Made by a program: the position numbers and the translations under genes. This document shows positions 2,549 through 57,777 of a stretch of 64,000 bases of DNA, piece after piece; position 1 is the stretch's first letter, and every line of letters starts with the position of its first letter. This DNA is from Polytrichum commune (lineage: Eukaryota; Streptophyta; Polytrichopsida; Polytrichales; Polytrichaceae): assembly GCA_950295325.1 (NCBI GenBank), contig OX485809.1:2480001-2544000 (forward strand), given 5' to 3'. The notes beneath the pieces were generated by a model. The model was not told where the DNA came from and did not search any database. It saw nothing but the letters and a program-made list of their open reading frames with translations.

Positions 2549-4484
2549 ATGGGTGATAATTTTTGTGCTTTAGACATGGAAGTTGTACCTCTTTATGAAG
2601 ATCAATTGGAGTTGCAATTACATGCATTTTTTAAAAAAGAAACTGTCAATACATCTTCTCGTCTTGAACGGTTGAGGTATCAACCAAGGGCTAAATCAAA
2701 ATTCAACATTTCAGTATGTCGAATGGTTGCATTGCCTGTTGTTAGGCCTTTTTTGAAAAATGACGTTATGAACTTGGCTGCACATTTTGTTGCTTGTGGT
2801 TATATGGAGGGCAATGGTGTTTTTTACGTGGCCTTAGAAAATAATGAGGAAAAAACAATAGATGTTTCAGATAGTATCATTGAATCTTGGAGTGAAAATT
2901 GGGTGCGGGCAAATGATGCCTTTGAAAAACTATTGCAAACTGATGAGAACCTCAAAGTTTTCTCTGGCAAAATGTTCATGGTGCCGGACGGAAACCACCG
3001 TTTGTAATGATGGTTGCCTATTATTAATCGAGATCATACACATGATCATGCTTGGCATTATGCTGTTGAAAATATTATTTTAGACATCAAGGGAGATATT
3101 GCAAGCATGTTGGCAGCTTTACATAAAGTCAATTGGTAATTCCTTCATTCTTCTCTTTTTATTTGTTTGGTTCATTTGGTTTTTTTTTAAATTATTTTTT
3201 TATTGAGTATTTTTTTTCCTTGGCTTATCATTGGTTGTTTTATTTTGTCATGAGGAACCAAAAATCCCATATTTGTACAAATCTTATTCATAAGTTTTTT
3301 CGCATTCAAAGCATTGCAGGGCAACCACTTTCATATTTTGAAAAACTTGTCTCCAAATAAGATCTTACTGCCGTTGATGCCAAACAAAAATCCAAACATA
3401 GGACTTGGTTCACTTTGATCGTTAAGGCTCTTAATGGATTTCTATACCAGGTTATTTTTTCTAAAGTATTCGTTTTTCATGCATTTTTTCCTTTTATATT
3501 TTTTTGTTTTTTTATTTGAATTTCTATAATTATGATTTTTATTGCATCTTATTTTTATTATGTGTGATTTATCATACTATTATATATTTTTTCCTTGGTG
3601 TAGCAAGAGTTGGGAGATGTTGCTGCTACTGCTCAAAGGAAATTTTATGAAAAATACCTTAATCCTGCACATTGGACTTCAAGTGCAGTAGATGAATTTG
3701 TTTCCAAAGCTGTTGAAAGGCTGAGATTGACTTCCCATTCGGAACTGAAGAAACAACTTCCCATTGCAGATCCTAGACATTCTCCTATGTTCTTAGAGCA
3801 GGTGAAGTCTCATTATGAAACTCACAATGAAAATCCTGAGATGACTCAAGAAAAGCTTTGGATGTTAGCAACTTCGGCAATAGACACATCTATGAAGATT
3901 AAGTGGCTAGAGAGATGGAACAGTTCACCTGCTCTTCGTGAGGCTCTCAAGTTTCCAAAACCAAAATTCAATGATATAGAGTTTCCTAAGTGGCTTTATA
4001 AAGCTACTTGGTGGGCTCACGTAATAATCTGTTTTCATTCTATTATTTTTGGTTCATTAATTTTTTGTCTATGTTTTTATTTATACTTAATATGTTTTTA
4101 ATCATTCAATTTTTTTAATCTTTATTTTGTATTTGGCAGTTGGCTATTGAAACCGAGAAGCTCTTTAATGCTACTGTGGCTGATATGCATGTGTCCATCT
4201 ACTATCTTCCAGATAGTATGGATCCTTTGCCCCACTATTTTTTATTATGTGGAGGCAATGCACATATTATTGTGGGATACTGCATTTTTTCATGAATTCG
4301 GTGTACACAAGGGAGTTCACAAAAACCATAACATTGACAAGCAACTCAATTTCAATCCGGCCATGCGAAGGGTGTTTTATAGGTACTTCAAATATGTCTT
4401 ATTTCCTGCTAAAGCCATTTCCAAATCTCCCATTTTTTTGGCTAACTATTTGGATATCGAAAGTGAAGAATGCATGTTCCCAGA
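2549..4484 (+). pseudogene. ParB-like/DNA methyltransferase-like gene, first half (outer copy)
   Basis: Exons inferred from reading frames and GT-AG sites: 2549-3135, 3320-3450, 3604-4020 and 4140-4484 (then broken by the inner element and resumed at 10720). The first exon ends in MFMVPDGNHRL followed by a decayed QTWLPIINRDH stretch. DGNHR is the signature of ParB/sulfiredoxin-fold domains, which in bacteria are often fused to DNA methylases. The third exon (139 codons, in phase) is hydrophilic and helical and is not recognised alone. The copy is broken by in-frame stops just after DGNHRL and in exon 2, and by a frameshift in exon 4. The start ATG at 2549 is conserved in the inner copy. The ParB assignment rests on the motif and on the methylase half downstream. 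Confidence 0.7.
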
Positions 4485-4499
4485 GGGGAGTGCTATCTT

Positions 4500-4556
4500 G
4501 TGAGCGGTGAGCGGTGAGCGGTGAGCAATGAGCGGTAATTTGTGAGCGGTGAAGAA
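4500..4556. repeat. Terminal GAGCGGTGA array (inner element, left end)
   Basis: About six copies of gagcggtga or close variants follow directly inside the left terminus. The same array, reverse-complemented, lies at 10620-10690 (inner right end) and 13186-13240 (outer right end). Its location right behind each terminus marks it as part of the family's ends. Confidence 0.85.
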
Positions 4557-5157
4557 AACAAAATATTTGGTAATAGGACCCCTAGTATCCTATAACCGTG
4601 GCCTAAAGAAATAAATTTTTAGGGTTCAATAATAAGAAGATTGGGGAGGACAAACAATACGAATGCTAGATTGCAAGTGTGAGCAATGAAAAATACCAAT
4701 ATGTACATGACTCGGGGTTGCTAGTATGTGAGCATGCGAGTGTGAACCTGTGAGCCCTCAATTTTTTCCCGGTTATGGTTTGTAAATCCGTTGGGGGCTT
4801 ATGATTGTGGAATTACATGTAAGGGTCTATAGTCAAAATGAACAACAAATGAGAATGTTGCTATAACAATTTTGTATAAAAAACGAACTAATATACATTA
4901 AACTGTTGAAATAATAATAATGTAATTGGAGACAATGTGTAAGCAAACTCATGTTGAAAACAAGTGTAGGATGTTAGAATGTCTCATTATAATACACATC
5001 AATGTAAAATTTGAATACCTCATAATACCATCATAAGGGTGATATTTACGAAGTGCAAAACATAAAGAACAACAAAAGTGAATTGTAGATATAAATCGGG
5101 TAGTAGGTTTAAATTGTTGAAGTTCTTGGAAATCAAATATCAAAAATAAAAAAATAG
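4557..5157 (-). other. 3' untranslated part of the inverted methyltransferase-like gene
   Basis: This stretch is the reverse complement of 12745-13190, the 3' flank of the outer gene copy (for example tttgatttccaagaacttc in both). It contains no coding frame. At about 5158 it is joined directly to exon 4, so the whole second half of the gene is deleted in this copy. The join lies in a T-rich stretch, which suggests a microhomology deletion. Confidence 0.75.
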
Positions 5158-6790
5158 TGGGCACATGATCCATATCATCTGGAAGATAGTTGATGGACAC
5201 ATGCATATTAGCCACAGTAGCATCAAAGAGCTTCTCGGTCTCAATAGCCAACTGCCAAATACAAAATAAACATTAGAAAAATTGAATGATTGAAAAAAAA
5301 AAAAAATTCAAAAAACATAGACAAAAAATTATCACTTGAGCCCACCAAGTAGCTTTATCAAGTCACTTAGGAAACTCTATATCTTTGAATTTTGGTTTCG
5401 GAAACTTGAGAGCCTCACGAACAGTAGATGATTTGTTCCACCTCTCAAGCCACTTAATCTTCATAGATGTATACATTGCCAAAGTTGCTAACATCCAAAG
5501 TTTTTTTTGAATCATCTCAGGATTCTCATCGTGAGTTTCATAATGAGACTTCACCTGCTTTAAGAACATAGAGGAATGTCTAGGATCTACAATAGAAAGT
5601 TGTTTCTTTAGTTCCAAATGGGAAGTCAATCCTACCCTCTCTACAACTTTAGAAACAAATTCACCCACTGCACTTGAAGTCCAATGTGTAGAATCAGGGT
5701 ATTTCTCATAAAATTTCCTTTGAGCAGTAGCAGCAACATCTCCCAACTCTTGCTACACCAAGGAAAAAACATATAAGAGTATGATAAATCACACATAATG
5801 AAAATAAGATGTAATAAAACATATAGTTATAGAATTCAAAATAAAAAGAAAAAAAATATACAAGAAAAAAAATGTGAAAACTAATACTTTAGAAAAATAA
5901 CCTAATATAGAAATCTATTAAGAGCCTCAACTGTAAAAGGGAACCAAGTTCTATATTTGGATTTTTATTTGGCATTAGCGGCAGTAAGATATTTTTTGGA
6001 AACAACTTTTTAAAAATATGAAAGTGGTTGTCCAACAATACTTTGAATGCGGCAAAGCTTATGAACAAGATTCGTACAAACATGGGATTTTTAGTTCCTC
6101 ATGACAAAATAAAACAACCAATAATAAGCCACGGAAAAGAAATATACAATAAAAAATAAACTTAAAAGAAAACCAAATGAATCGAACAAATAAAAAGAGA
6201 AGAATGAAGAAATTACCACTTCATGTGAAGTTGCCAACATAGTTACAATATCTCGCTTGACGTCCAAAATAATACTTTCAACAGCATAATGTCAAGCATG
6301 ATCATGTATATGATCTCGATTAATAATGGGCAACCATGTTTGCAAACGGTGGTTTCCATCCCACATCATAAACATTTTGCGAGAGAAAACTTTGAGGTCC
6401 TCATCAGTTTGCAATATTTTTTCAAAGGCATCATTTGTCCGTACCCAATTTTTCACTCCATGATTCAATGATATTATCGGTAACATCTATTGTTTTCCCC
6501 TCATTGTTTTCCAAGGCTACGTAAAAAACCCCGTTGCCCTCCATATAACCACAAGCAACAAAATGTGTAGCCAGGTTTATAACGTTATTTTTCAAAAAAG
6601 ACCTAACAATAGGCAATGCAACCATTCGACATAGTGGAATGCTGAATTTTAATTTTGCCCTTGATTGATACCTCAACCGTTCAAGACGGGAAGATATGTT
6701 GACAGTTTCTTTCTTAAAAATGCATGCAATTGCAATTCCAATTGATCTTCAGAAAGATGTACAACTTCCAAATCTAAATCACAAAATATC
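5158..6790 (-). pseudogene. ParB-like/methyltransferase-like gene, internally deleted inverted copy
   Basis: This carries the same exons as 2549-4240 in reverse order: the LAIETEKLF exon at 5158-5250, the QELGDVAATAQRKF exon at about 5347-5755, the PLSYF exon at 5925-6065, and the ParB-like exon at 6210-6790. Here the motif reads MFMMWDGNHRLQTWLP without the stops seen in the other copy, which shows the ancestral frame through the ParB-like box. The first exon has a small deletion near its start. The methylase half is absent because exon 4 is fused to the 3' flank. Such internal deletions are usual in Mutator families. Confidence 0.75.
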
Positions 6791-6944
6791 ATCCATATGA
6801 AAGATAAAACTAAATTAAAAGAAATATATACATATGAAAGAAATCACATATGCAAACTAAAATAATATACAAAAATATTTATGAAAGTGAAAGTATACAT
6901 AAGGAAAAATCACATATAGAATAGAATCTGAAATTTCAATATGG

Positions 6945-7560
6945 ATGGCTATTAACGGCCACCCTTGTTGGAGGAAAAAAAATGAAGGAAATAACTGTAT
7001 ACATGAAGAAAGATACATATATAGAAAATAATATAAAATTTTAATAAGGGTTGAAATGACTGTATACATGAAAAAAAATACATATATAGAAAAAAATATG
7101 AAATTTTAATAAGGGTGGAAATGAGTGTATACATGAAAAAATAAACTTATATACCAATAAATTTGATATGCAACCAAGGGTGGCCGTTAACAGCCACACT
7201 TTTAGATGGAACATACATAACAAATATATGTATATATGTGATTTTATTTCAAAGAAATTATGTTGTTAAATGAAGATTGAAACTCAAGAAGGGATACCCT
7301 AAACTAGAAAATAGAAGTTAGCATCATACAAAGGGTGGCCGTTAACGGCCACACTTTTAGATGGAACATACATAAGAAATATATGTATATATGTGATTTT
7401 ATTTCAAAGAAATTATGTTGTTAAATGAAGACTGAAACCCAAGAATGGGTACCCTAAACTAGAAAATAGAAGTTAGCATCATACAAAGGGTGGCCGTTCA
7501 CGGCCATCCTAAACTAGAACACAGAAGTTGGCATCATAAAAAGGGTGGCCGTTAACGGCT
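6945..7560. repeat. Inverted copy of the palindrome array
   Basis: Near matches to GTGGCCGTTAACGGCCAC occur at about 6945, 7182, 7335, 7490 and 7545. The array is shorter and less regular than that at 1571-2400. A segment of about 150 bp beginning near 7182 (ggtggccgttaac, acacttttagatgg) is repeated directly at 7335, so this array has changed by local duplication and deletion. Confidence 0.8.
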
Positions 7561-8044
7561 ACCCATTTGGAAGAGAAATACACTTTGATTTGAGTCACTT
7601 TCCGGAGTTGCTATAACGTTTTCAAATATTCTAATTTATTTCCGAAAAAAGTCAAGTACATAGATTATAGCCTTGTCATTCACTCCAATTGTTTTCAGAA
7701 TTTTTGGAGATGATATCAATTTTACATAAATCGCCAAAGTCTATTAAAATTAATATGATTAGATTTCCTGCATAAAATCTTCATTTTTTGAAGATTTTAG
7801 AAGAATCTAAGATGCTCTAATTGTTTTTTTGGCTCTAAAACATGCAACACAAAATCATTTTGTTTATGCTATATACCGTTGGAATCGTATTATCGGCGTG
7901 CACAATATAGTATACATTACATATCTCCAAATTTATTTTGATTTTAAAGTTATTTTCTTACGATTTCGTTCGTACAACCTACCTCCATCTCCGCCTCAGA
8001 AGATTGTTCTTCTTTTTCGTATTGTGTGGCGTATTTCTCCATGG
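7561..8044. other. Shared 5' region between the two divergent transposon genes
   Basis: This is homologous in reverse to 860-1560. The match ends near 8035, at cacacaatacg on the - strand, where the transposase sequence begins on the + strand. The likely divergent promoter region of the inner element lies here, or a deletion has joined the two parts. No clear TATA box was picked out. Confidence 0.4.
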
Positions 8045-9789
8045 TTGCACGTGAGCGTACATGTCTTTTCCATTGGTCTACGAGCTTGGATAAGATGACC
8101 CAAAAATATATCAAACCATCCTTGCAGTTTCAACACAAGTAATTATGCAAGGATTACAAAGACGCGAAAACAATGGACGACGCCGAGACTAAGTATCATG
8201 TGATTCGTTATTGGTGGTTGTCATCCAGATCTGCCTCGGAAGAAGGCATTGTTGGCCTTTCAAAGTGGTTGGGTTTTTAGCACTTTCGTTACAAACAATG
8301 GGGTGGTCATATATTATTTGTAAGTACATATCAAAATTGAATATTCAATGTCATTCATTTTTCTTCCATTTTTAAATATATCTTATATTTTTATTATCCT
8401 CATATTTGTGTGTTGTTCATAGGATATGACAATATAACAACGTGCGGAAATGCCAACATGCAACCTTGCAGAGACTATGCACAAAAAATGGCTCCAACAA
8501 TCCGGCAACAAGATGACTTGTTTATATGAAGCTACAGTGGATGACATGATCCGTGCCTTCATGCAAACTACAAATTACCAGACATGGTTGAAAGGGGGTC
8601 TGATGGTAAAGGTCTTGATTCGGCATCCTTGAAACTCAAAGCGGCTGCCAGGTGTGGAGATCCAAAAATGTTGGCTGATGCCATGAAGTCTTATCTAGGG
8701 GCAGAAGACGTCAATACTAGAGATTGTGCATTGGAAGGGTCAGAGCTCTTTGGTTCCACGAAACGCAAACTCAACCTATCACTGGGTGTTAATTGTGACT
8801 CTCATCGACCCGACAAAGTGAACTATTTCATTCCTCATCCCAACACCCGAGCAACTCGTCAACGCATAGAGGAATCGTTGAATTTTGCAATTCATGGTGT
8901 GGCTCATACCACATCTGTGTTAGAGACTGATTGTCTTGCTTCTAAGTGGCACATTGCAAGATTGCCACCCAACTCAGCAAAACGATGTTGGGTACTGCAA
9001 GCCATTACAGGGACTGTGTACAATACCAAAGTCGGGATTGGAAAACATGGCACACCTGCTCCAACATACAAAGGGCTCAAGAAGGAATTTTGCTCACCCA
9101 ACAATGTGGAGTATGAATTTTGGTTTTGCCTTGACGATATTAAGCATTGTGTGAGTGGCAGTATGAAGAAATATGTGTTGGTTTGGCCTATAGTACCCAA
9201 CATGTGGCCGGTGAAGATAGGTACCAATCTATCGAGAGAGGAGGTTCTGGCACTTGAAGATGCTGAATTTCAACTACAGCAGAGGGAGGCATTGTCCCCT
9301 TGTCGTAGGCTTTCAACAATCGCAACTCTTCCCAACCCTTGCTCGCATTTTTGTATGCCACCAAACCCGGACGTCCACTCTACATTCAGGTTTGGGAAGA
9401 CAGTGCGTCGTAATCCAACAGCACCGCTAGCGGATCACAAAAACAAATGGAAAAGCACCGGACTCATGGAAGATTACTATGTGGTTGGGATCATTGCCAT
9501 TCCATATCCGGGCTTTGGAGTGATAATAAACATTGTCTCCAAGCAGGATATCACCTACCATGTCACAATTGGCGACATCCCGCATTGCACATGCCCGGAT
9601 TTCACGAAAATGTCATCTCATGCATCGGGAAAAAAAGGAAAATGGGTGTATTGTAAACATCTTTATTATGTGTTTAGATTTTTGTGCAAGGTGGATTACG
9701 TGAGTGACAAGTTCATTCATGCACCTACATATACATATAATGAGGTCATGCAACTACTTGAACTTGCTGATATTGTAAAATGTGAGTAG
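8045..9789 (+). pseudogene. SWIM-domain Mutator-like transposase, 5'-truncated
   Basis: The frame begins within ARERTCLFHWSTSLDKMTQK, continues through CNLAETMHKKWLQQSGNK and ends with a long open stretch (8584-9789, 401 residues). The C-terminal end holds a SWIM zinc motif: CTC at the start of the motif and CKH about 30 residues later, typical of Mutator and FAR1-type transposases. A probable intron runs from about 8313 to 8423. The copy is broken: stops occur near 8149 and 8278, and there is a one-base shift near 8595. The catalytic DDE part upstream is not present. The 9-bp target duplication of the element supports the Mutator call; without it this would be only a SWIM protein. Confidence 0.65.
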
Positions 9790-10042
9790 TATTGCAAGTG
9801 TTCTATTAAGCAACATATATTTGAATGTCAATAAATGGCATGTTTTGGTTTGGATTATTATAACAAAAATTAGTTATGGACTGAAAGTCTTTCAAATGAT
9901 TCAGTAACTTCAATTCTATTTAGACTACGACCCAACCGTGAGCGGTTTGATTGAATCACACAGATAAATAATAACAAGTTTCTAAAAATAAAAAATAATT
10001 GACAAGATTCTACGTACATCCGCGTAGCAACCTTTTCTTGGT
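9790..10042 (+). other. Transposase 3' flank, first copy
   Basis: Positions 9720-9910 (end of the transposase and its 3' flank) are repeated with changes at 10304-10500, including the coding tail and the TAG stop. A tandem duplication of the transposase 3' end, split by a small insertion, explains this. Confidence 0.7.
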
Positions 10043-10183
10043 ATCCGCCTATAGATTATTCCTACTTTATCATTAACTCAATTTGGGATAGCACCAGTCA
10101 ATGTAACCAACCGGATTCGAACCCGGGTTGATCCAGACCTAATACCGGTCTCTTACACAACTCGCATCTATAGGCGGATGTCT
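10043..10183 (-). repeat. Possible tRNA-derived SINE or small MITE
   Basis: On the - strand the string GGGTTCGAATCC matches a tRNA B box exactly, and about 35-45 bases upstream a weak A-box-like tagatgcgagttg is seen. The segment is bounded by an inverted repeat ATCCGCCTATAGAT (10043 onwards and near 10170-10183). A SINE would explain the B box; a MITE would explain the inverted ends. No intact cloverleaf was found, so this is not called as a tRNA gene. Confidence 0.4.
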
Positions 10184-10303
10184 CAAAATCTAGTAGCTAC
10201 CTACATATTGACTATTTCTAATATCTAATTTCCTTGCTTTTGTAGATTGTGGGCCTTAACTGAGCCCGTGAGTGGTTTGAGTGGTTTGAGTGGTTCACAA
10301 TTA

Positions 10304-10600
10304 TGATACCTACATATACGTATAACGAGGTTATGCACCTACTTGAACTTGTTGGTGTTGTGAAATGTGAGTAGTTGTACAAGTGTGGGTTGTAACTACA
10401 TGTATAAGGATGTCAATAAATGACATGTATTGGTTTGGATTATTATAATAAAAATCAGCAATGGATTGAAAGTGTTTAAAATGATCCATGGTAATAGGAT
10501 CCTTTCACGTGTGCTTCATTTAAAATACTGGCAATTTACAATTGAAAATATATAATTAATTTGTCAAAATTCTGGTTATGTACCCTAAATCCGTATGTCT
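10304..10600 (+). repeat. Second copy of the transposase 3' end
   Basis: This copy repeats the transposase tail (YTYNEVM, LLELV..VKCE) and the 3' flank. Its part from 10390 to 10590 matches 13257-13465 closely, down to a shared gtaccctaaa. The three related pieces show that several members of the family have inserted into or recombined with each other here. Confidence 0.75.
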
Positions 10601-10619
10601 TTACTAAATTTGGAGTCAT

Positions 10620-10705
10620 TGCTCATATGTTACTGCTCATTGCTCATGTGTTACTGCTCACCGCTCACCGCTCACTGCTCATCGCTCATAAGATAGCTTC
10701 CCTCT
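10620..10705. repeat. Terminal gctcaccgctca array (inner element, right end)
   Basis: Seven to eight variants of gctcaycg precede ATAAGATAGCTTCCCTCT, the inner element's right terminus. The array is in opposite orientation to that at 4500-4556. Confidence 0.8.
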
Positions 10706-10719
10706 GTTCCCAGAGGGGA

Positions 10720-12717
10720 TTATGAAATCTTGGGATCCTATGCATTTTGAAAAATGTGGGTGGTATTTGGATTGTCCTCTTAAATCACCTCCCACTTTTG
10801 ATATTGCCCTTCGATATTCCATTCAACCCGCCCTCAAGGGTACAACTAAAATTGCTCCCTCCATAATGGATGAGGATGCAACCAAGATGCCAGAAAAAAT
10901 CTAAGCCTAAAATACCAATCCTCCTAATTCATGATAGCGATGACGATGCTCCAATTCAAAGTAGTCTCTACAACCTTGTAGTTATTGAACTTTCTTCTTC
11001 AAATCTAGAGGCAATGTTTTATACTTTAAAGCGGAAGAAAACAACCCCTTCTCCTACCTTCGATATGCCTCCCAAGCTTAGAGGTATGATGGATATCTTG
11101 CCTTCTTTACCTGCAAATCATACATCTTCGGATTTAATCTTGAATGATTATGTTGTGAGGATTATCAAAGATAAGAAGCAAACATGTACATTTCGTGCAC
11201 CATATGACGACATTGTGGCTTTTCTATCAAAGGTGAGTTCATTTTATTTTACAGTTTTTAATTTTTTTCATGTTTTATAAAGTTTCACTCATATTTCATC
11301 TCGTTATTTCATTTTTTTTTCTTTCAATTGTCGTTTTTATTCATGAATTGTAATATTTATATTTTATCTTTGTAGGTTGGTGAAGGTAGACAATTTTTTT
11401 TTATGGCCAATTACAAAAGAAACTTGTTGTGGACCTCATTATTGCGGATTACCCAGATGGTCTTCAAGTTCCTGGTGTCTTGGATCCGCCATCTCAAATT
11501 CTCCCTTGGAATGTCAACATTCCAAGTTTTCTCAACATATTCATGGCATTTGCTCTTACATATCTTCATGATTATGGAACATTCTTTTTGTTTTATCTTG
11601 ACAGTTCTGCGGTGAAGAGAGAAGTGGCAGAATTCTTCAAGAACTATAAGTTCAAGATCAATGATGAGTGGACTATCATTAATTGCTTGCACTTGGCAAA
11701 TCCTATGAATCCGTCCAAAAATGTAAGTAGCAATTATGGCATTTTATTTGGATTGGTTCATATTTGAATTTTTTTTATGTGGTGTATATTTTTTAATTTT
11801 TTAATTTTTTTTTACTTTCAGACTTTGAAGTTCAAGGCTTTGTTATTGGTTCGATCATTTTCATCTCTTATTGCGAGGCAACCTCAAGAACTTCTGATCA
11901 CCATGCATCCTTCAATTCCAGAGGTTGATTTAGCCACATATGACGTTATTTTCAACTCTATTACTACGGAAACTCAATTATGTAGACAAATAGTTGGTAA
12001 GCCATAGAGGGGTGCAAAGGAGAAGTCTGAAGTTTTAATGAAGTTATTTGTTCATGGTTTAAGTCATGTAGGCGGTATTGTGGCAGACTTGACTGCTTTT
12101 ACATGTATTATATTTTACAGTATCTAATTATTAGTTCATTTTTTTTTAATTCATACTTCAATGTTCGTATTTTCCTAATTAATATTGTGCTTCATCCAGG
12201 TTCTTTTATTAGAGCGGCTCATTCATCCAATCGTCATATTCTAGCATTAGAAAGTAATGCCGAACTCTTTGATGAGGTATTAAAGCCTCTTCAAACACCT
12301 ACAACTAATACCTCATGCGATGGTATGGACTTTGATGATGATACTCCAATAGAAGACGTTGCACTACTTAACTTATGTGAGTAAGTTTTTTCCATGTTTT
12401 TTTTTCAACAACTTCAATTACAAATTCTAGATTTTGTATTCTAATTTGTTGTTGCATATTCTAATACATAGTCTGTTGTTTGCAGTTGGATGAATCCATC
12501 ACCGATACAAACCTCGTCATTTTATCGGCACCGTGGATTATTGAGAATCCCCTCTCTTAGTCCTCATAGCCTCCCTGTGTATACTGAGGCTTTAGCTGAA
12601 GCTTATACTAATGCTTCATCTACTTCATCTTCAATTTCACCTTCACCTCGTAGATATTACGATACTAGAGTATGTGCTTATTTTGAACTCAGTGCATCTG
12701 AGTCCGACGATATTTAA
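10720..12717 (+). pseudogene. ParB-like/DNA methyltransferase-like gene, second half (outer copy)
   Basis: Inferred exons are 10720-11232, 11376-11722, 11822-12104, 12200-12380 and 12486-12717. The second reads VVDLIIADYPDGLQVPG, which sits where beta-class methylases have motif IV (DPPY), followed by an HDYGTFFLFY strand. The third and fourth read EKSEVLMKLF, then GGIVADLTAFTCSFIRAAH and ILALESNAELFDEVL. These correspond to motif X, the SAM-binding motif I and the acidic end of the second strand (IGIEIDPEY in bacterial enzymes). The order IV-X-I is that of beta-class N4-cytosine/N6-adenine DNA methyltransferases. The copy is broken: frameshifts lie near 10895 and in the T run at 11390, and there is a stop near 12005. 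Motif I is damaged and motif IV is non-canonical, so this copy cannot be active. Confidence 0.7.
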
Positions 12718-13256: not shown

Positions 13257-13465
13257 GAAGTTAACTACATGTATAAGGATGTCAATAAATGACATGTATT
13301 GGTTTGGATTATTATGATAAAAATCAGCAATGGATTGAAAGTGTTTTAAATGATCCATGGCAATAGGGCCCTTTCACTTGTGCTTCATTTAAAATACTGG
13401 CAATTTACAATTGAAAATATGCAATTAATTTGTCAAAAATTTGATTATGTACCCTAAACCGAAGT
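13257..13465 (+). repeat. Third copy of the transposase 3' flank
   Basis: This is closely similar to 10390-10600, but the terminal gctcaccgctca array is missing and the match stops after gtaccctaaa. The outer element therefore abuts, and probably inserted into, the 3' region of yet another family member. Confidence 0.75.
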
Positions 13466-19899: not shown

Positions 19900-22800
19900 A
19901 TGGAGGAGGAGGCGTTAAAGAAGAACACAGACTGTGTGTACTTTCTGGCGTCTCCCCTGACGTGCAAAAAGGTAAAATTACAACTATCACCCTTCAATTT
20001 TCCCCTTTTTTATTTTTTATTTTTTTCTCTACACAGCCTGAAGCATTCTTCGCATTTCTTTGGATTTCCAGGCACATTGCTTAGCTATTGTTCAGCTGTT
20101 GCGCCTGTCCTTCGAGTATGTGATATGAAAGTGTGGAAATCAAGGCATTAACCAATCTAGGTAACCAGGTAGACCTATTGGGGCAGTTGTCATTGAGACG
20201 ATTTTTGTTGCCTTTGTAGCATCATTGCCTTGAGTAGAGAGTCTAGTCTTCAGGTTGTTACTAGGCTATGCAATACTATTCCATCAAAATTTCCCAGCAG
20301 TTTATGATGAGTAGTAATGCAAAAACTCAAAATTTTCTAGCTAGTTCCTCAAGTTGGTTTCTCAAGTCGCATTGAACATGAAACATCAAAGTTTGGTTTG
20401 TGCTTTTTAGAAGGGTACGATGATCTTAAAGTAATGTTAGCTCAGCTATCAGGTATGGGTTTTGCAAAAGCAATGAGGTTACTTCTGCAAGGTCTTGATT
20501 ATATGGAAGTTATGAGCAGAGTGAGGCTTTCATTATTTAGTGCCATTTTTCTGAGGAAGTTTGGTTGAATGCTAATTAAGTTACCTAATTGATTGGCTGT
20601 AGTCACCATCAGTCCTGTATTCATGCTGTAAAATTATGATCATACTAGTTTGTTCTCGTTTGTATTTTTTTTTGTGCCTGATTTGACTTGTCTTGCTCCA
20701 ACAATAGCACACAACACATACTTTCTGACAAATAAGTGACTTTGTGTTTGTCACTCTTTGGGCTCCTGTTTGACTGTGAAATGTAAAATACATATAGTAT
20801 GTACGGTTTGATCCACAAATTGATAATAATTTCGCCTGACAGTCCTCTCGACAATCACTGATGTTCTCCTACTTGTGCAGGGCATTGAGTGTGAATTCAG
20901 GCATAGCGAAAATGCTCGAATCAATCCAAGGGACTGCTGGTATTGGCTAGGGGGCAAATGTTTGATGGTTGACTGTCCTTTTCGGCATCCTGTATGTTCC
21001 TTTCCCTATGCTTTTTTAATCTATTTCAGTAAGCTGGAAAGTCGTTAATCAGAAACTCTGGCTGACATCTTGCTAGGTGCTTTCTGGGAGTTTTGAGTTC
21101 TATTTAGGATCCCCATCTCCTATCTGAATATCTGCTGTATGGAGCTTGCTTGATTATCATGCTTTGGTAAGCATAGGACGTCACTACTTGTTAGCTTTCA
21201 AACTGTAGGTGATAAGCAGGTTTTGGCACTCTGGCACTTTGGTGCTGAAATGCTAATTTATTGATGTGACACATGGGATTTTTATATAACTCCTAACTAA
21301 TAAGTGACATGTGGCACTTTGCTCACACTTTGCTCACAATTTTGTTTAACCTGCTTGTCACCTGCGGGTAGTCTTCTTGGTTGCGGATTGCTAACTGATA
21401 GGCTGTTGGTAATGACTACTTTGGCAGCCTCTGGATGGGAGGCCAGTGACTGGTGGCGCCCCGATGGCCCCTCCTACCGGGACAGTTCCTGCCAGAGCAC
21501 CAGCAGTGACCAAGGCTTTAACTCCCTGTTTCTTTTTCTCCCAAGGTTATTGTGCCAAGGGGGACAAATGTCCATTTCAACATGGTGGGTCTACTGGCCA
21601 TGCCTCCAGTGGACAACAACCTGGGCCTAATATGAGAGCTTCAAAAACCGTTTATGCTGGGCACATGGTCAAAAAAACTGGAAACAATGGCCCAGCTGTT
21701 GCGAAGATGGATGAGGGAGCACAAGATGGTACTGGTGTCCCTGAAATGGGACCTGAATCATCTGTACTTCCCAATAAATCTCTGCCACAGGTGGAGAAAA
21801 AGGAAGGTCAACATGCAGGATCTTTATTACAAAATGGGTCACCGAAAGGAAGGCTTGAAGGAGTAGCACCCTTGAAGACCAATACTGTAGCCACAGCCGG
21901 GGCTGGGGCTAGCAGTAGATTGCGTGTACGCCAACTTCATTCCGGAGACGAACGCTTTTCAAATGGATTGAAAGGGGAGGACTGTTGGGAGGAATCATCA
22001 CCTGGTTTTGATGTCCTGGTGAATGTGGGCCCGGATCAAATGTACGATGAAGGTGGTCAATATCAAAGTGGGCATGAGGCAGAAGGGGAGCATGGAAGGT
22101 CTCAAAGGAGAGGACGGCGGATGTATCCAACCGATCAATTTGATGAGTATGGGAGTGACTATATGGGTGGGGTTGATCCGTCAGGGTTTGCTGTAGGGGG
22201 ACAGTATAGTCATGGGGGCTATCATGAAGATTATGGGCATGAAGGCCGTGATCCCATGCTTTATAACACACAAGGAATGCCGTTTGGCATGAGGGCCGAA
22301 GGTCCCGAAGGAGGAAGAGATAGAATGGTCTTGAATTTTGAAGTGGAAGGGGGTGGTAGGCTTGGGAAGGACCAAAAGCAAATGTTGAAGCGCCAAAGGT
22401 CAGATGGTCATCCGGCAGGGAAGAATGCCCGAAGGCCACGGATAGAGCCAGGGCAAGACAACTACTTTCTTAGGCGGATGCAAGAGGAAGCACAAAGGTC
22501 ACATGAGATGCACTTAAGGCAACAACTAGTCATGCAGCAACAGCAGGGTAAAGGCAAGCCAAATAATGGGAGGAGGCCAAATGACCGACTCTCAGCTGAG
22601 ATGGGAAGGAGGTTAGAACCAAATCCGAATCTGGAGAGTCTTGATAGAACAACACAAAATGGGGGCATGGGGCTGACCGAACAGGAAATGCTCAAGGGAG
22701 AATCTCACAGAGCTGGAGAAGGTGAAAAACATAGAATGGATATTGATAGGCGGTTACAATCCGAGGCTGCTATGGTTGTTGATGATCAAAAAGGACATCA

Positions 22801-23512
22801 AACCAAGCAGAAGAAAGAAGTGCCTCCTACGACTTTTGCAGGGCCCAAGTCACTTGCACAAATACTAGCCGAGAAGAGGAAAGCGACTACTGCAGTAAGC
22901 GTTGTGGAAAGTATTAATAGCCCTGTGGAATCACAGAAAAGAGATCAGAGTAGTAGTATAGACCTGACTCCCCATGGCAGTCCACCTGTTGACACAACAC
23001 CTGGGGAGGAAAGAAAGATAAGATTGGAAAAGGTTGTAGGTTATCCAGAGTCTACCAAGCCTGTAGCTTTTGTAGGACCGAAGTCTTTGAGTGATTTACT
23101 TCAAGCCAAACGCCAAGAAGGGAATGCAGTTTCGATTCGAAGTGAAATCACTCATGGAGGAGATGACAGTATGGTGCTTCCCTTGTCAGATACCAGAAGA
23201 AAAGTGACTAATGATGAATATGTCACAGCCATCAATGCACCTAAGCGCATGAACAATGAACCAGCTGAAAACAATGGGGATGAAGCACAAAATGACACGG
23301 TGGCAGGAGAGGAAGGCATAGACAATAGCATGGAGATTGATAACCTAACTTCGGATGCACATAGCTTAGGTGGTATTTATGAACTAAAGATTGACACAGA
23401 TGCTTTTGGACTTGAAAACAAGTCAAGCATAGACCTTGAAGAGGATGAGGAATACACTGTAGATGATGAGGACGATGATTTTGCAAAGAAGCTGGGAGGT
23501 TTCTTTTCTTAG
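19900..23512 (+). CDS. CCCH zinc-finger protein, C3H17/C3H44-like
   Basis: Three exons join in frame: 19900-19971, 20881-20991 and 21428-23512, giving 755 residues. The start is the ATG in gccaccATGG; the opening EEEALKKNTDCVYFLASPLT matches the plant C3H17/C3H44 family. Three CCCH fingers are visible: C12-C22-C28-H32, C43-C51-C56-H60 and C95-C103-C109-H113 (spacings X9-X5-X3, X7-X4-X3, X7-X5-X3). Such fingers bind RNA, and relatives are nuclear or shuttle between nucleus and cytoplasm. The middle is hydrophilic and Gly/Arg/Asp-rich with a QQQQ stretch. A motif GPKSLxxxLxxKR occurs twice, near residues 532 and 610. The C-terminal end is acidic (DEEYTVDDEDDDFAKK). Exon phases and stop are clean, so the gene looks intact. 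The exact RNA targets cannot be told from sequence. Confidence 0.92.
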
Positions 23513-25598: not shown

Positions 25599-25860
25599 GC
25601 ATCGCCAACTTCAGCTTCTTCCCACTGAGAACTACTGGCAACTACACCCAGCTGATGATTTTCTCACCCTTCATAGAGCCTTCCACTGAAAGGTGACAAT
25701 AGCATGTGGGTGAAGAGGCTCTTCATTTATGTTTGCTTTCATAGGAATATAATGTTCTTATCTATCTAATTGACCTTTGAACATTAGGTTTTCTTATATT
25801 TCTACACAGTTGAGAGTTTGTAAGGTCTCGGTGCTACATTTGTTGTGGTAGTGCTTACTA

Positions 25861-26559
25861 ATGGATCGCGGATCCCGTTTGGGATTAACTCTATTGGGTT
25901 TAGTTCTGACAAATATTTTTTCAGTTGGGATGTTTATTATGGGAGCCCATGCAACCACATTTCAGGTTACCAACAATGCGTTAGGCACTTCCGGAGGGCA
26001 GAGGTTCGACAAAGAGCTTGGGAACACGGCGATGCAAACAGTCTTGATGGACGCCACAAATTACATCCAGGACCAGTTTTCGTTGAGCACCCCAAAAGAC
26101 GTGGCAACTGTCACGCTCTTTGTGGACGACATGTCGGGAGTCGCGTATACTTCCAACAACGAGATTCACCTCTCCGCATCCTATGTGGACGGGTTCACGG
26201 GCGATTTGACGTACGAGATCACCGGGGTTTTGTACCACGAGTGCACTCACGTGTGGCAAAACAACAACGCGGGAGGGTCTTCAACTCCTGAGTTTTCAGG
26301 TACCATCGAAGGCATGGCCGACACCATTCGGATGCGTGCAGGGTGGGGTGCCAAGTCGTGGGTGCAAGACAAAACTGGGTCGTGGTATGCAGGGTACTCC
26401 AACACGGCCTATTTCTTCAACTGGATCGAGGATACAAAGAAGCAAGGCTTTATTAACGAGTTGAACCAGGATATGGCCAACCCATGGACCACCGATTTCT
26501 TCACGCAGATTATTGGCACCGACGTCAACACTCTGTGGCAGCAATACCAAAGTTCTTGA
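25861..26559 (+). CDS. Plant basic secretory protein (BSP), metalloprotease-like
   Basis: A single exon of 232 residues. An N-terminal hydrophobic signal (LGLTLLGLVLTNIFSVGMFI) ends in AHA, a good signal peptidase site, so the protein is likely secreted. The mature part shows VTLFVDDMSGVAYTSNNEIH, then HECTH at residues 126-130 (HExxH zinc-binding pattern) in the family context YHECTHVWQ, and IEGMADTIRMRAG downstream, all hallmarks of the plant BSP family. These proteins are apoplastic, are induced by pathogens or stress, and are grouped with zincin-type metalloproteases. The length is usual for the family. The GC content is higher than the surroundings. The frame is uninterrupted, and neighbours give no functional hint. 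Confidence 0.93.
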   Translation: MDRGSRLGLTLLGLVLTNIFSVGMFIMGAHATTFQVTNNALGTSGGQRFDKELGNTAMQTVLMDATNYIQDQFSLSTPKDVATVTLFVDDMSGVAYTSNNEIHLSASYVDGFTGDLTYEITGVLYHECTHVWQNNNAGGSSTPEFSGTIEGMADTIRMRAGWGAKSWVQDKTGSWYAGYSNTAYFFNWIEDTKKQGFINELNQDMANPWTTDFFTQIIGTDVNTLWQQYQSS

Positions 26560-53986: not shown

Positions 53987-56267
53987 TTAGACTTCTTCGG
54001 CACGGGTTTCCTTGATGGCGTTGAGACCATTCTGATCAGCGGGCTTAACAGCCTCCGGTGGACTAACATTACCACGCCTGCCACGCTCGGATCGAGAGTT
54101 AGCGGCAAACTTCAAGCTGTTTTCGTGCAGCCCCTGCTCCTTCTCCTTGTCGCTCCACTCGGAAGCATAGTAATCTTCCTCGGAAGTCTGGGAGGCCGGG
54201 AAGAACATCCCTCCCCACTGGGGGAACCACACTAACAACACAAGCGAAGTGCAACACAGGATCATGATACCCATGTACACAATCCCCACCTCGGTAGAAT
54301 ACGAGGATGAGGTGAAGAAGATGGTTTGTGTTATCACCGATCCAACGTTACCCCCCGCCCCTGTGAAGCCAGAGATAACCCCAAGGGACCTTCGGGAGAT
54401 GAATGGGATGATTCCGAACGTGGCCCCGCAGGCAGCTTGCACGAAGAAAGAAAAGATGATCATAACACCGATGGAGGCACCCAGAGTGCTTGTGCTGCCG
54501 AGGATGATGCAAAAAACGCCTCCAAGTGATTGGATGATCCAGAGGTTCCACAGACGGCCCCGCATGCCGAACCTCCTTCCCAGCAGGTCGGAGATGACCC
54601 CACCGCTAGGGCGGGAGAAGAAGTTCATGAACCCGAACAGGGAGGCGATCACACCTGCCTTGGAGAGGTTCATTCCGAATCTGTCGTAGAAGTATTGCGC
54701 GATGATGTTGTCGACCGTCAGCTCCACTCCGAAGCAGTAGCCATATGTGATGAAGAATATCCATGTACGGTAGTTTGTTACTGCGTACAAGAAAACCTGC
54801 AGGAAGACATCCACCATCGAAATGCTTAACAAATTTGGATTCAGTGTAACCCCAATGCACACAGGCGTCCCACTCCATCAATTTATTCCGTATAAATTTG
54901 TTGGATTCTCTGACATAAAGAGAAGAGGATCGAACTTGTGACGAACAAGACTGACCTTAAGGAAGCTGTCTTTCACTTTGGCGCCTTCCTTCTGAAGTTG
55001 TCTGTAGTTACCGTCCGGGAGATCTTGCCCGAAGAACAATACCATCAGCCCCATGACTGTATGCATAAATCCAGGCAGGAAGAATGCAAGTCGCCATGCT
55101 GTGAAGTCCGTGGCTTTAAAACTGACAAAATCAAAGCGCAAACCAACTTAGCAAATCAGTCCAAGAAACGTATCTTCCTCCAACTTGCCACATTTCAACA
55201 AATCTATCGTACGAGTTAGAGGACAAAGGCCAAACAAACGAGCAGGAGAAAGTATTTGGGTGTGAGGTAGGAGATGTTCATACCTGTCGCGGATCAAACT
55301 GTAGACAAGAGGCATAATGAGTTGGGTTGCCCCGCCTCCGAGGTTACCCCAGCCCGCAGCGATGCCATTTGCAGTGCCCACAACCTTGCTGTTAAACATG
55401 GAGCTCATCCAGAACTGGCAAGACACAAAGGTCGCCAACGAGAACCCTATGAAAAAGCGTACCACGATGAAGCCCGTGACATCGGACACCGTCGCCATGG
55501 AGTACACGGCGGGCGCAATGATCATAATCAAGAAAGCGCATCCGTATCGCGGTCCCACCAAGTCGCATACGGACCCCATTACAAGACGTGACAAGATGGA
55601 ACCTGCAACCACAATTTTTTTTCCCGTGACCATCAAATTCCAAAGGTCAAATGTCAGGAACAACTTCACATAATTGCAGAACTAGCAGCAATTCTAGTCG
55701 TACCTCGGAACCTAGGAAAAAAGCTATCCCACTCCTTGACATGGACCTTGACGTTGAATTCATCATCTTCTTCACACCTTGCAAAAATCAAACTCATAGC
55801 AACTTTTGTACTTAGACTTCACATTGAATTTCCAAGAACATGACTGACATCCTTGCTTGTGACTGCTGAGCAGAGAGAGTTTGACTCGAAAGATAGACTG
55901 ACTTACCAGACACGGAGGCGATGCTCGCATTTCCGATGTCCGTCTTGGTGAGGTTGAGGTTGTCACGGATGATAGGGATCAGAGGGGGCGCTGCAAAAGT
56001 GGACAGGAAACACGTGAAGAAAGAAATCCAGGAGAGATGAAAAGATCGCATGTGCGGCGCTGCGAAGCTGTAGATTCGGATGGTCTTAGCCTTGTGCTCC
56101 GAATCCACCGGGAGCGAGAACTTGGCTGCATTTGGGTCCTCGTCAACTTTCCCCTTTCCTTGCATCACCGAGAATGCGTACACGGGCTCCTTACCCGTCA
56201 CTCCGTGCATCGACATTCCGGGGTCCCCCTTCCCCTCCCCAACCCCCGACGTCGTCTGGTCCGCCAT
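53987..56267 (-). CDS. NRT2: High-affinity nitrate transporter NRT2 (MFS, NNP family)
   Basis: Four exons on the - strand join in phase: 56267-55907, 55602-55284, 55121-54956 and 54796-53987, giving 551 residues, a usual NRT2 length. The start is [12 protein letters not shown]; the N-terminal tail is cytosolic and polar. After the first membrane segments comes [17 protein letters not shown] (major facilitator motif A), then the nitrate/nitrite porter signature [11 protein letters not shown] near residues 204-214, and a second Gly-rich [11 protein letters not shown] near 425. The C-terminal tail after [12 protein letters not shown] is long and hydrophilic, as in plant NRT2. These carriers import nitrate with protons across the plasma membrane, usually with the partner NAR2. 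Splice sites and frames are clean, so the gene looks functional. Confidence 0.95.
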
Positions 56268-57777
56268 TTCGATCGACTACCTCGCACCTCCCAACCCACC
56301 AACCAACAACCACACAAATCTCCCCGAAAACTCACTCTTAAACCTTAAACCCCACACAATTCTCCCCAACCCACAGTACCCACCCCACACCCATCCACTA
56401 AAACCCAAACCACCTCCGACCCAATTCACTCTCAGCAGCAGCAGCGACGACTTGATGACCTCTTACAATTGTGGTCTCTCACTTGCAGACCAGGCTCTTG
56501 AGAGATGTTTGCTCATAGCCGGTGAAGGCGATGAGCCTAATACTTAAAAAAATTAGTGCTGTGGCCTGCAGAGGCTGGCCGCAGGTGTGCCGTAGCTTAA
56601 ATATGCAAGTGTGATGCTTGAGAATGAATTTGTAGGTGAATTCATGTAAGTGTAAGGAGTCTGCAGAATCATGTGCTATTTGAGAGCGTGGGGTTGGGGC
56701 GGGATCTGATAGGGGAGGCCGCTTCTGTTGCTACTTTTTACCGCTGCCAATTCTAAAAGCGGGGACGCTTGGCTGGCTGGGGCTTCCTTGCGGCCATGCG
56801 CACGCGTCGCCGCGGGCCAACGGGAGCGGCCCCCACAAGCCTGGAAGTGAAGTGCAGATGCTCGCCTCAGTTCTTCCTTCCCCCCCGGCCTCTCTGATCT
56901 GGCTGCCCTGAATGAATGAATGCATCCCCGCCCCCTTGGCAAACCTCCGAATTACTGTGGGCTAAAAGGCCACTTCCCACACGAGCCAAGAAACGTCACC
57001 ATGACAATTGTGAGAGCCCCAAAGAAAGTGTCCCAACACACCTCCAAACTCATGTAGTGTGGTCACGGGCCCTCAAGTGTAGTGTGAAGCCATATGGGAC
57101 CGGGCCCTCCACCAAATGCTATTTCAATGAATGTCAATTCATGCACGTCCTCACGCATGGTGAAATGGAATAAATCAGCGGTCGTGAGCGTTCGGAGTAT
57201 CATGGTCTCCCGGTTTATGTGGTAGGTCTAACTCCAAGAGGTGGTTTTTGAAAATAATCCAAGTGATTCTGAAACATGATCCATTCGATGCCATGTAGGA
57301 ATCCATGTGGACTTTACATCCATCTTGTATTCACATGCTCCGTTGGTCCCTCAAGCGTGATGTGAAGTGAACTTGGACCGGCTCCGCCTTTTCCACCAAT
57401 GAGAGTGCTTGAAGTGTGATGGTCACAATCTCTCAGTCTCATGTGTGAAGTGGCCCTAATTAAGGTAGACTCAGGTTTCACACACCTTACTGGTGGTGGC
57501 CACCAGCAAACCAGCGGACGTTGTCCATTGCCCACCAGTAAGTGTGGGCAAAAATTCACTTGTTGGGAGCAAAGTGGCAACAAACTAGGAGCAAAACCAA
57601 TAGCAAAACCAATGAACAGTTGTAATGGTCGTCCGTTACTATCTAGTCATTTGTTGTTGGTGAAAAGCATATTCAAAGTGGTCCCTTGCTGGTGGGAGGC
57701 GTCCACTAGCCCCTACACCAACAAGTGTGGGCAAGCTATCAGTGGACTCCAGTTGGAATGAATCGGCCCTCAACCAT
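56268..57777. other. Upstream region of NRT2 and spacer
   Basis: Positions 56268-56460 are C-rich and likely the NRT2 leader and proximal promoter. A GC-rich block lies at 56690-56950. Overlapping frames here run on both strands and have no known domain. Confidence 0.45.

Follow-up and report, generated by a model that had tools for sequence, protein, structure and literature searches.

The 64,000-nucleotide stretch of the moss Polytrichum commune analysed here (contig OX485809.1, positions 2,480,001 to 2,544,000; hereafter the window) carries at 2549-12717 a nest of mobile DNA, in which one gene copy, copy A, has its fourth exon interrupted by a second element, element B. The gene, which we refer to as the ParB/methylase-like gene, has eight exons and encodes a protein with a predicted ParB/sulfiredoxin-fold domain at its N-terminus and, at its C-terminus, a domain that appears remotely related to bacterial-type DNA amino-methyltransferases. 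We are highly confident of the identity of these parts, and on balance we favor a reading that makes this the second, accessory gene within a family of Mutator-like DNA transposons in this plant. A first-pass annotation had described a gene resembling a ParB-DNA methyltransferase fusion at 2549-12717; that this is one continuous gene we reject, because element B splits exon 4 and brings into the interval another copy of the gene, inverted and truncated, along with part of an unlike gene that has a SWIM-like finger. The features are as follows.

1567-2402, no strand: array of element A, upstream of the gene; tandem repeats of ~105 bp containing AGGGTGGCCGTTAACGGCCACCCT, a 24-bp palindrome; 8 sites within 6 mismatches of it, 0 exact
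2549-3135, plus strand: exon 1 of copy A, predicted ParB/sulfiredoxin-fold domain; DGNHRL at 2987-3004, stops at 3005-3010
3252-3450, plus strand: exon 2 of copy A; decayed acceptor, one internal stop
3604-4020, plus strand: exon 3 of copy A, with 40 scored genomic places
4140-4474, plus strand: left part of exon 4 of copy A; one-base insertion, then interrupted by nested element B
4475-4484 (left) and 10705-10714 (right), no strand: target-site duplication TGTTCCCAGA flanking element B
4485-10704, minus strand: element B, nested and 6,220 bp long; belongs to the same family of transposons, inverted and internally deleted
4950-6786, minus strand: gene copy of element B (tblastn, gene against window), exons 1 to the start of 4, to about residue 437, remainder deleted
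6942-7565, no strand: palindrome array of element B; 5 sites within 6 mismatches
8039-9789, plus strand: fragment of the divergent transposase-like gene, open frame 8545-9789, SWIM-like CxC...CxH
10705-11232, plus strand: right part of exon 4 of copy A; frameshift at a poly-A run near 10885
11376-11722, plus strand: exon 5 of copy A, methylase-like domain; motif IV position ADYPDG at 11444-11461
11822-12104, plus strand: exon 6 of copy A; motif X position (RGAKEKSEVL, with EKSEVL at 12020-12037) and the start of motif I (ADLTAFT, 12083-12103)
12200-12380, plus strand: exon 7 of copy A; remainder of motif I, motif II (ILALESNAELF, 12238-12270)
12486-12717, plus strand: exon 8 of copy A; C-terminus and terminal stop codon
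13236-13250, no strand: right end of element A, terminal inverted repeat AAGATAGCACTCCCC

Motif I is split by an intron, its CSFIRAA part spanning the junction (12104 and from 12200). The motifs that the first-pass annotation had read, from a ParB-like box (DGNHRLQTWLP) to motif II, all lie in the window in the order it gave, except that the QT of the box is absent from copy A, where it reads DGNHRL-stop-stop-WLP. The partial copy inverted onto the minus strand does carry QT (6334-6360), and in L029 and L031, two copies from elsewhere in the genome, the letters are QA.

A search of the genome (408 Mb, 64 contigs) with exon 3 matched at least 40 places, the window's own included, at 91-100% identity (the best 40 of 96 candidates scored). 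For the comparison of copies, 20 stretches of 10 kb were taken from the genome, and 11 fuller copies (L021, L023, L025-L032, and L034) went into an alignment that also included the window copy; L022, whose 3' part has no match, was excluded from the counts. These 11 copies are 97-99% identical to their majority sequence, which forms one open frame over eight exons bar a single frameshift in exon 4 and encodes a protein of ~1,036 amino acids, exon borders being set by splice sites of canonical sequence in the greater part of the copies. The frameshift falls in the poly-A run, whose length varies and which is out of frame in the majority of copies; this could reflect replication slippage or, if functional, slippage in transcription or translation. 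Forms open at this run do exist, as the metagenome relative P0048 is open across it.

Besides the poly-A run, every one of the 11 copies carries at least one lesion, and their summed changes from the majority (199/163/183 at codon positions 1/2/3) follow the pattern of dead copies. The window copy is dead: a comparison of copy A with the majority shows four stop codons, two of them directly following DGNHRL, three insertions or deletions (two of one base, one of three bases), and a damaged acceptor. Its exons nevertheless differ from the majority by 0.060 versus 0.112 for its introns, with 60/46/81 changes by codon position, a contrast as would be expected if an active line were under selection. 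A deleted form, in which the match ends at residue 430-438, occurs in 8 of the 20 stretches (L024, L033, and L035-L040), and window 4485-10704 is likewise of this form; it has spread with the ParB part and the array kept and the methylase part lost.

Relatives of both parts were found in protein databases. The search with the methylase part returned 52 proteins at E ≤ 10, of which 47 were at E ≤ 1.5e-10 (best 9.6e-75), and that with the N-terminal part returned 90, from 5.6e-116 to 8.1e-14. Nearly all are nameless database proteins; the named one, P0106, is M758_UG129100 of the moss Ceratodon purpureus, at 63% identity over 63% of the query. Motifs are retained in relatives at ~40-90% identity. 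The methylase alignment comprised 46 of the 52 relatives plus the majority row, each with at least 60 aligned columns, alignment A3 had 14 rows, and the N-terminal alignment included 86 of the 90 relatives (P0135, P0138, P0139, and P0142 excluded). Many methylase relatives carry an apparent retained intron at the exon 5/6 junction, which argues that this intron is old. In phages, tblastn with residues 197 onward of the decayed reading gave no close relative, nor was there one among viral contigs with one peptide pattern (A1) or among prokaryote contigs, where the query was the N-terminal part of the single relative P0078 without the methylase part; plasmids lay outside these searches. A search of viral contigs with a 20-bp core of the palindrome led nowhere. 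As these limited searches gave no close bacterial or phage relative, bacterial acquisition of the gene is something that we infer.

The N-terminal domain of relative P0053, as predicted by AlphaFold and compared with VIA-align, has the fold of the ParB N-terminal domain, and the model matches the ParB CTPase domains (7bm8, 7bnk, 6sdk), Noc, and KorB. The box G-x-x-R-x-x-A of the ParB family resembles DGNHRLQAW here, although no clear match emerges at the level of sequence profiles. DndB matched 3 of the 86 relatives (best 0.0059), yet DUF5531 matched 15 and MC2 5; similarly, the PHROG family "ParB-like partition protein" matched 3 of 86 (best 0.14), yet a tail-fibre PHROG matched 16. An hhalign comparison of the ParB part with YbdM relatives scored no better than shuffles. 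Sulfiredoxins share the fold and have their catalytic cysteine within G-C-H-R; we rejected this identity because the cysteine is absent from 83 of 83 rows, 78 of which read DGNH and the other five DGNY (two), DGKH, KGNH, and NGNH. The long middle region that follows has no recognised domain.

The C-terminal domain appears to descend from the beta-class amino-methyltransferases by remote homology. Under default settings, hhalign against N6_N4_Mtase (PF01555) covered motifs X-I-II over 69 columns with a score of 52.0, versus up to 19.9 for shuffles, and looser and global runs were collinear from IV to II (222 and 235 columns); profile comparisons were controlled with shuffled, reversed, and unrelated sequences. 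The permuted order of the beta class, IV followed by X-I-II, is thus found here as well. The Pfam gathering score of PF01555 was not reached (17.8 bits versus a cut-off of 26.7). Motif I of the S-adenosylmethionine (SAM) site is typically G-x-G; among 27 rows the last G is present in 26 and the first in 9, with S in the others. Of the sequence searches of the PDB, two returned nothing and others a protease (E 1.5), eL24 (0.011), and a scaffolding protein (1.3), which we took as chance; AlphaFold was uninformative on the methylase part, as the piece modelled contains a retained intron and stops at motif I.

Tandem repeats of ~105 bp carrying the perfect palindrome lie between two divergent genes, and the array recurs beside the gene in both complete elements that we read (L164+L031 and L165+L028). 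Counting sites with at most 6 mismatches, the window has 13 (0 exact) and the two complete elements have 16 apiece, of which 7 and 6, respectively, are exact; across the 20 stretches they range from 4 to 44, versus 0 in five Markov resamplings of 16 kb. Agreement with the majority was higher in the 24 columns scored as site, which are shifted by one base relative to the palindrome, than in the remainder of the unit: 94.2% versus 76.7% over 45 units, 90.7% versus 61.3% in the window units, 92.9% versus 53.2% in ten units chosen for differing flanks, and 96.1 versus 86.0% and 95.1 versus 86.9% in the complete elements. The units share descent, which weakens the statistics but not the contrast. 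As the site columns exceed the remainder in all sets, the site appears conserved amid changing surroundings, as a candidate binding site would be.

The complete elements measure 15,942 bp (contig C3) and ~13,093 bp (contig C6), start with GAGGGAAGCTATCTT, end with AAGATAGCACTCCCC, and are flanked by the 10-bp duplications GTGCATTTAC and CCCTTGAACC. Both ends were located for eight elements. Their terminal inverted repeats read GAGGGAAG(C/T)TATCTT... on the left and ...AAGATAGCACTCCCC on the right, the inverses sharing GCTATCTT(A/G)TGAGCG; six of the eight have a target duplication of 10 bp and one has a duplication of 9 bp, with none in L035. The right terminal repeat was present in 16 of the 20 fetched stretches and was not found in L022, L023, L029, and L030, three of these stretches ending near the gene. 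A second gene, to the left of the ParB/methylase-like gene and on the opposite strand, has a SWIM-like finger; its leftward frames include GFMADSAQANWNAVR...CLFHW and CTCPDF...(CK)H. DDE transposases of Mutator-like elements (MULEs) have a CxxH motif and often a SWIM finger, and we take a stretch of this gene to resemble such a transposase. The duplications, including the 10 bp of TGTTCCCAGA around element B, fall within the 8-11 bp given for MULEs in a published account (PMC6446971).

Homology of element A to a complete element begins at window 611, its left part being missing or outside; nearby, at 317-520, is a 34-bp tandem repeat in six copies (92%). The DNA just past element A, at 13265-13460, is part of the left end of the element itself in inverted orientation (93.9% to E31 3738-3933), and element A therefore probably landed in another copy of the element. 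Elsewhere in the window are open frames that we take to be like a nitrate transporter (NRT2; 53987-56276, minus strand), a CCCH zinc-finger protein (21416-23512, plus strand), and a plant basic-secretory-protein peptidase (25852-26559, plus strand).

ParB CTPases bind cytidine triphosphate and load as clamps at parS sites, and ParB proteins classically load at palindromes. Together with the adjoining array and the precedent of VANC, an anti-silencing protein of Arabidopsis transposons discussed below, this leads us to propose that the ParB-fold protein would recognise the palindrome array of its own element, and that the methylase-like domain, with motif I largely kept and (D/E)YPDG in place of motif IV, would mark or shield the array DNA. 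Copies of the element would in this way be told from host DNA and kept expressed, much as VANC does for VANDAL. By analogy, in what we think the most likely role, the protein would use the array to identify the element that encodes it and would change the epigenetic state of that element through the SAM-site domain, whether that domain is active or not, although we hold this mechanism of self-recognition only tentatively. A more specific version, in which the ParB fold loads as a clamp on a parS-like array and the methylase-derived domain writes or shields against DNA methylation as a transposon-encoded self/non-self epigenetic system, seems to us somewhat less probable again.

Several results weigh against these assignments. 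In Pfam, neither domain is matched by the raw exons of the window, whose profile check the first-pass annotation had proposed, and with the full decayed reading 0 of 8000 scored candidate proteins reached 0.001; less decayed relatives nonetheless exist elsewhere, as that annotation had supposed, and emerged from the searches with the methylase and N-terminal parts. Its ParB-like domain is upheld by the AlphaFold model and VIA-align comparison of a relative, whereas Pfam ParBc matched 0 of the 86 relatives at E ≤ 1. Its beta-class methylase in the order IV-X-I stands as homology, strong at X-I-II and collinear to the IV position, but the catalytic motif of that class, (D/N/S)PP(Y/F/W), occurs in 0 of 26 aligned rows, the position reading EYPDG in 15, DYPDG in 4, DFPDG in 2, and otherwise in 5; we therefore rejected a normal catalytic motif IV and regard methyltransferase activity as doubtful on these sequences. 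Spread with a Mutator-like transposon, also proposed there, agrees with the terminal inverted repeats and the 9-10-bp target duplications, but no MULE model in Pfam matched the transposase-like stretch of the second gene, for which SWIM (E 0.1) and DUF6208 (0.008) both remained below cut-off, and its assignment as a transposase is accordingly likely but unproven. It is also a fair alternative that the transposase-like protein binds the array instead.

One may postulate that the protein is an active DNA amino-methyltransferase that writes N4-methylcytosine (4mC) or N6-methyladenine on the element by means of the (D/E)YPDG loop. Homology to beta-class enzymes and the final G of motif I would fit, as would the activity of bacterial-type 4mC enzymes in bdelloid rotifers and also in Marchantia, as given in PMC8885841; yet with the catalytic motif lacking in 26 of 26 rows and the first G of motif I mostly replaced by S, we consider this improbable. 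The gene might instead be a passenger, captured once by the transposon and carried unused, since MULEs tend to take up fragments of host genes (PMC6446971, in part), 12 of 12 checked copies are broken, changes summed over 11 copies have no third-position excess, and deletion derivatives have spread without the methylase part. Against this stand the exon divergence of the window copy, about half that of its introns, the motifs kept in divergent relatives, and the position of the gene beside the array in both complete elements, and we judge a mere passenger unlikely.

Less probable still is an old nuclear gene of mosses, of bacterial origin, that was acquired by the transposon and remains non-mobile in other mosses: the searches gave a diverse set of relatives (90 and 52 protein clusters), one of them annotated in Ceratodon purpureus, but the right terminal repeat accompanies 16 of the 20 fetched stretches. 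With the best 40 of 96 candidates scored, a single-copy host gene would have escaped. That decayed plant DNA resembles methylase motifs by chance could be read into the lack of profile matches for single window exons; we rejected this reading as exceedingly improbable given the relatives and the profile comparisons against shuffled, reversed, and unrelated controls.

Returning to the accessory-gene reading, bacteria and phages have ParB-like domains fused to amino-methylases, which agree with the present protein in both domain types and in their order; in contrast to such fusions, the moss gene has eight exons and a long middle region, and no relative of that kind appeared in the limited phage, viral-contig, and prokaryote-contig searches. 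In addition, Walker et al. are said to have described in 2025 a 4mC methyltransferase of bacterial origin in Marchantia, which we liken to the present protein by its description and not by sequence. The N4CMT enzyme of bdelloid rotifers is a permuted amino-methylase of bacterial type (PMC8885841, in part), and it and the Marchantia enzyme are, as here, bacterial-type amino-methyltransferases in a eukaryote; N4CMT, however, is an active host gene with a chromodomain, whereas here a transposon gene is joined to a ParB fold and has a non-canonical motif IV. The VANDAL elements of Arabidopsis, which are MULEs, offer a close parallel in organisation, with genes beyond the transposase and non-coding tandem repeats of short motifs, and VANC binds such repeated motifs in its own elements, leading to loss of DNA methylation (PMC5735166). 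The available portion of that account mentions neither a ParB nor a methylase domain in VANC, and here the repeated motif, a candidate binding site, is a 24-bp palindrome.

A MULE-like element with an accessory gene is thus known, and the make-up of the accessory protein is what is new; among the titles and opening lines of abstracts returned by searches of open-access papers, none describes a protein of the ParB/methylase-like kind in a transposon of moss or another eukaryote, although absence is not proven. Anti-silencing proteins of transposons are likewise known from VANC, but the present one is built from parts of known biochemistry, and direct tests can therefore address which DNA it targets and its use of nucleotides and SAM. 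The finding would add a ParB-type protein and a relative of the bacterial-type amino-methylases to the mobile elements of plants, and it raises the question of whether the amino-methylases of bryophytes and those of transposons may have a common source.

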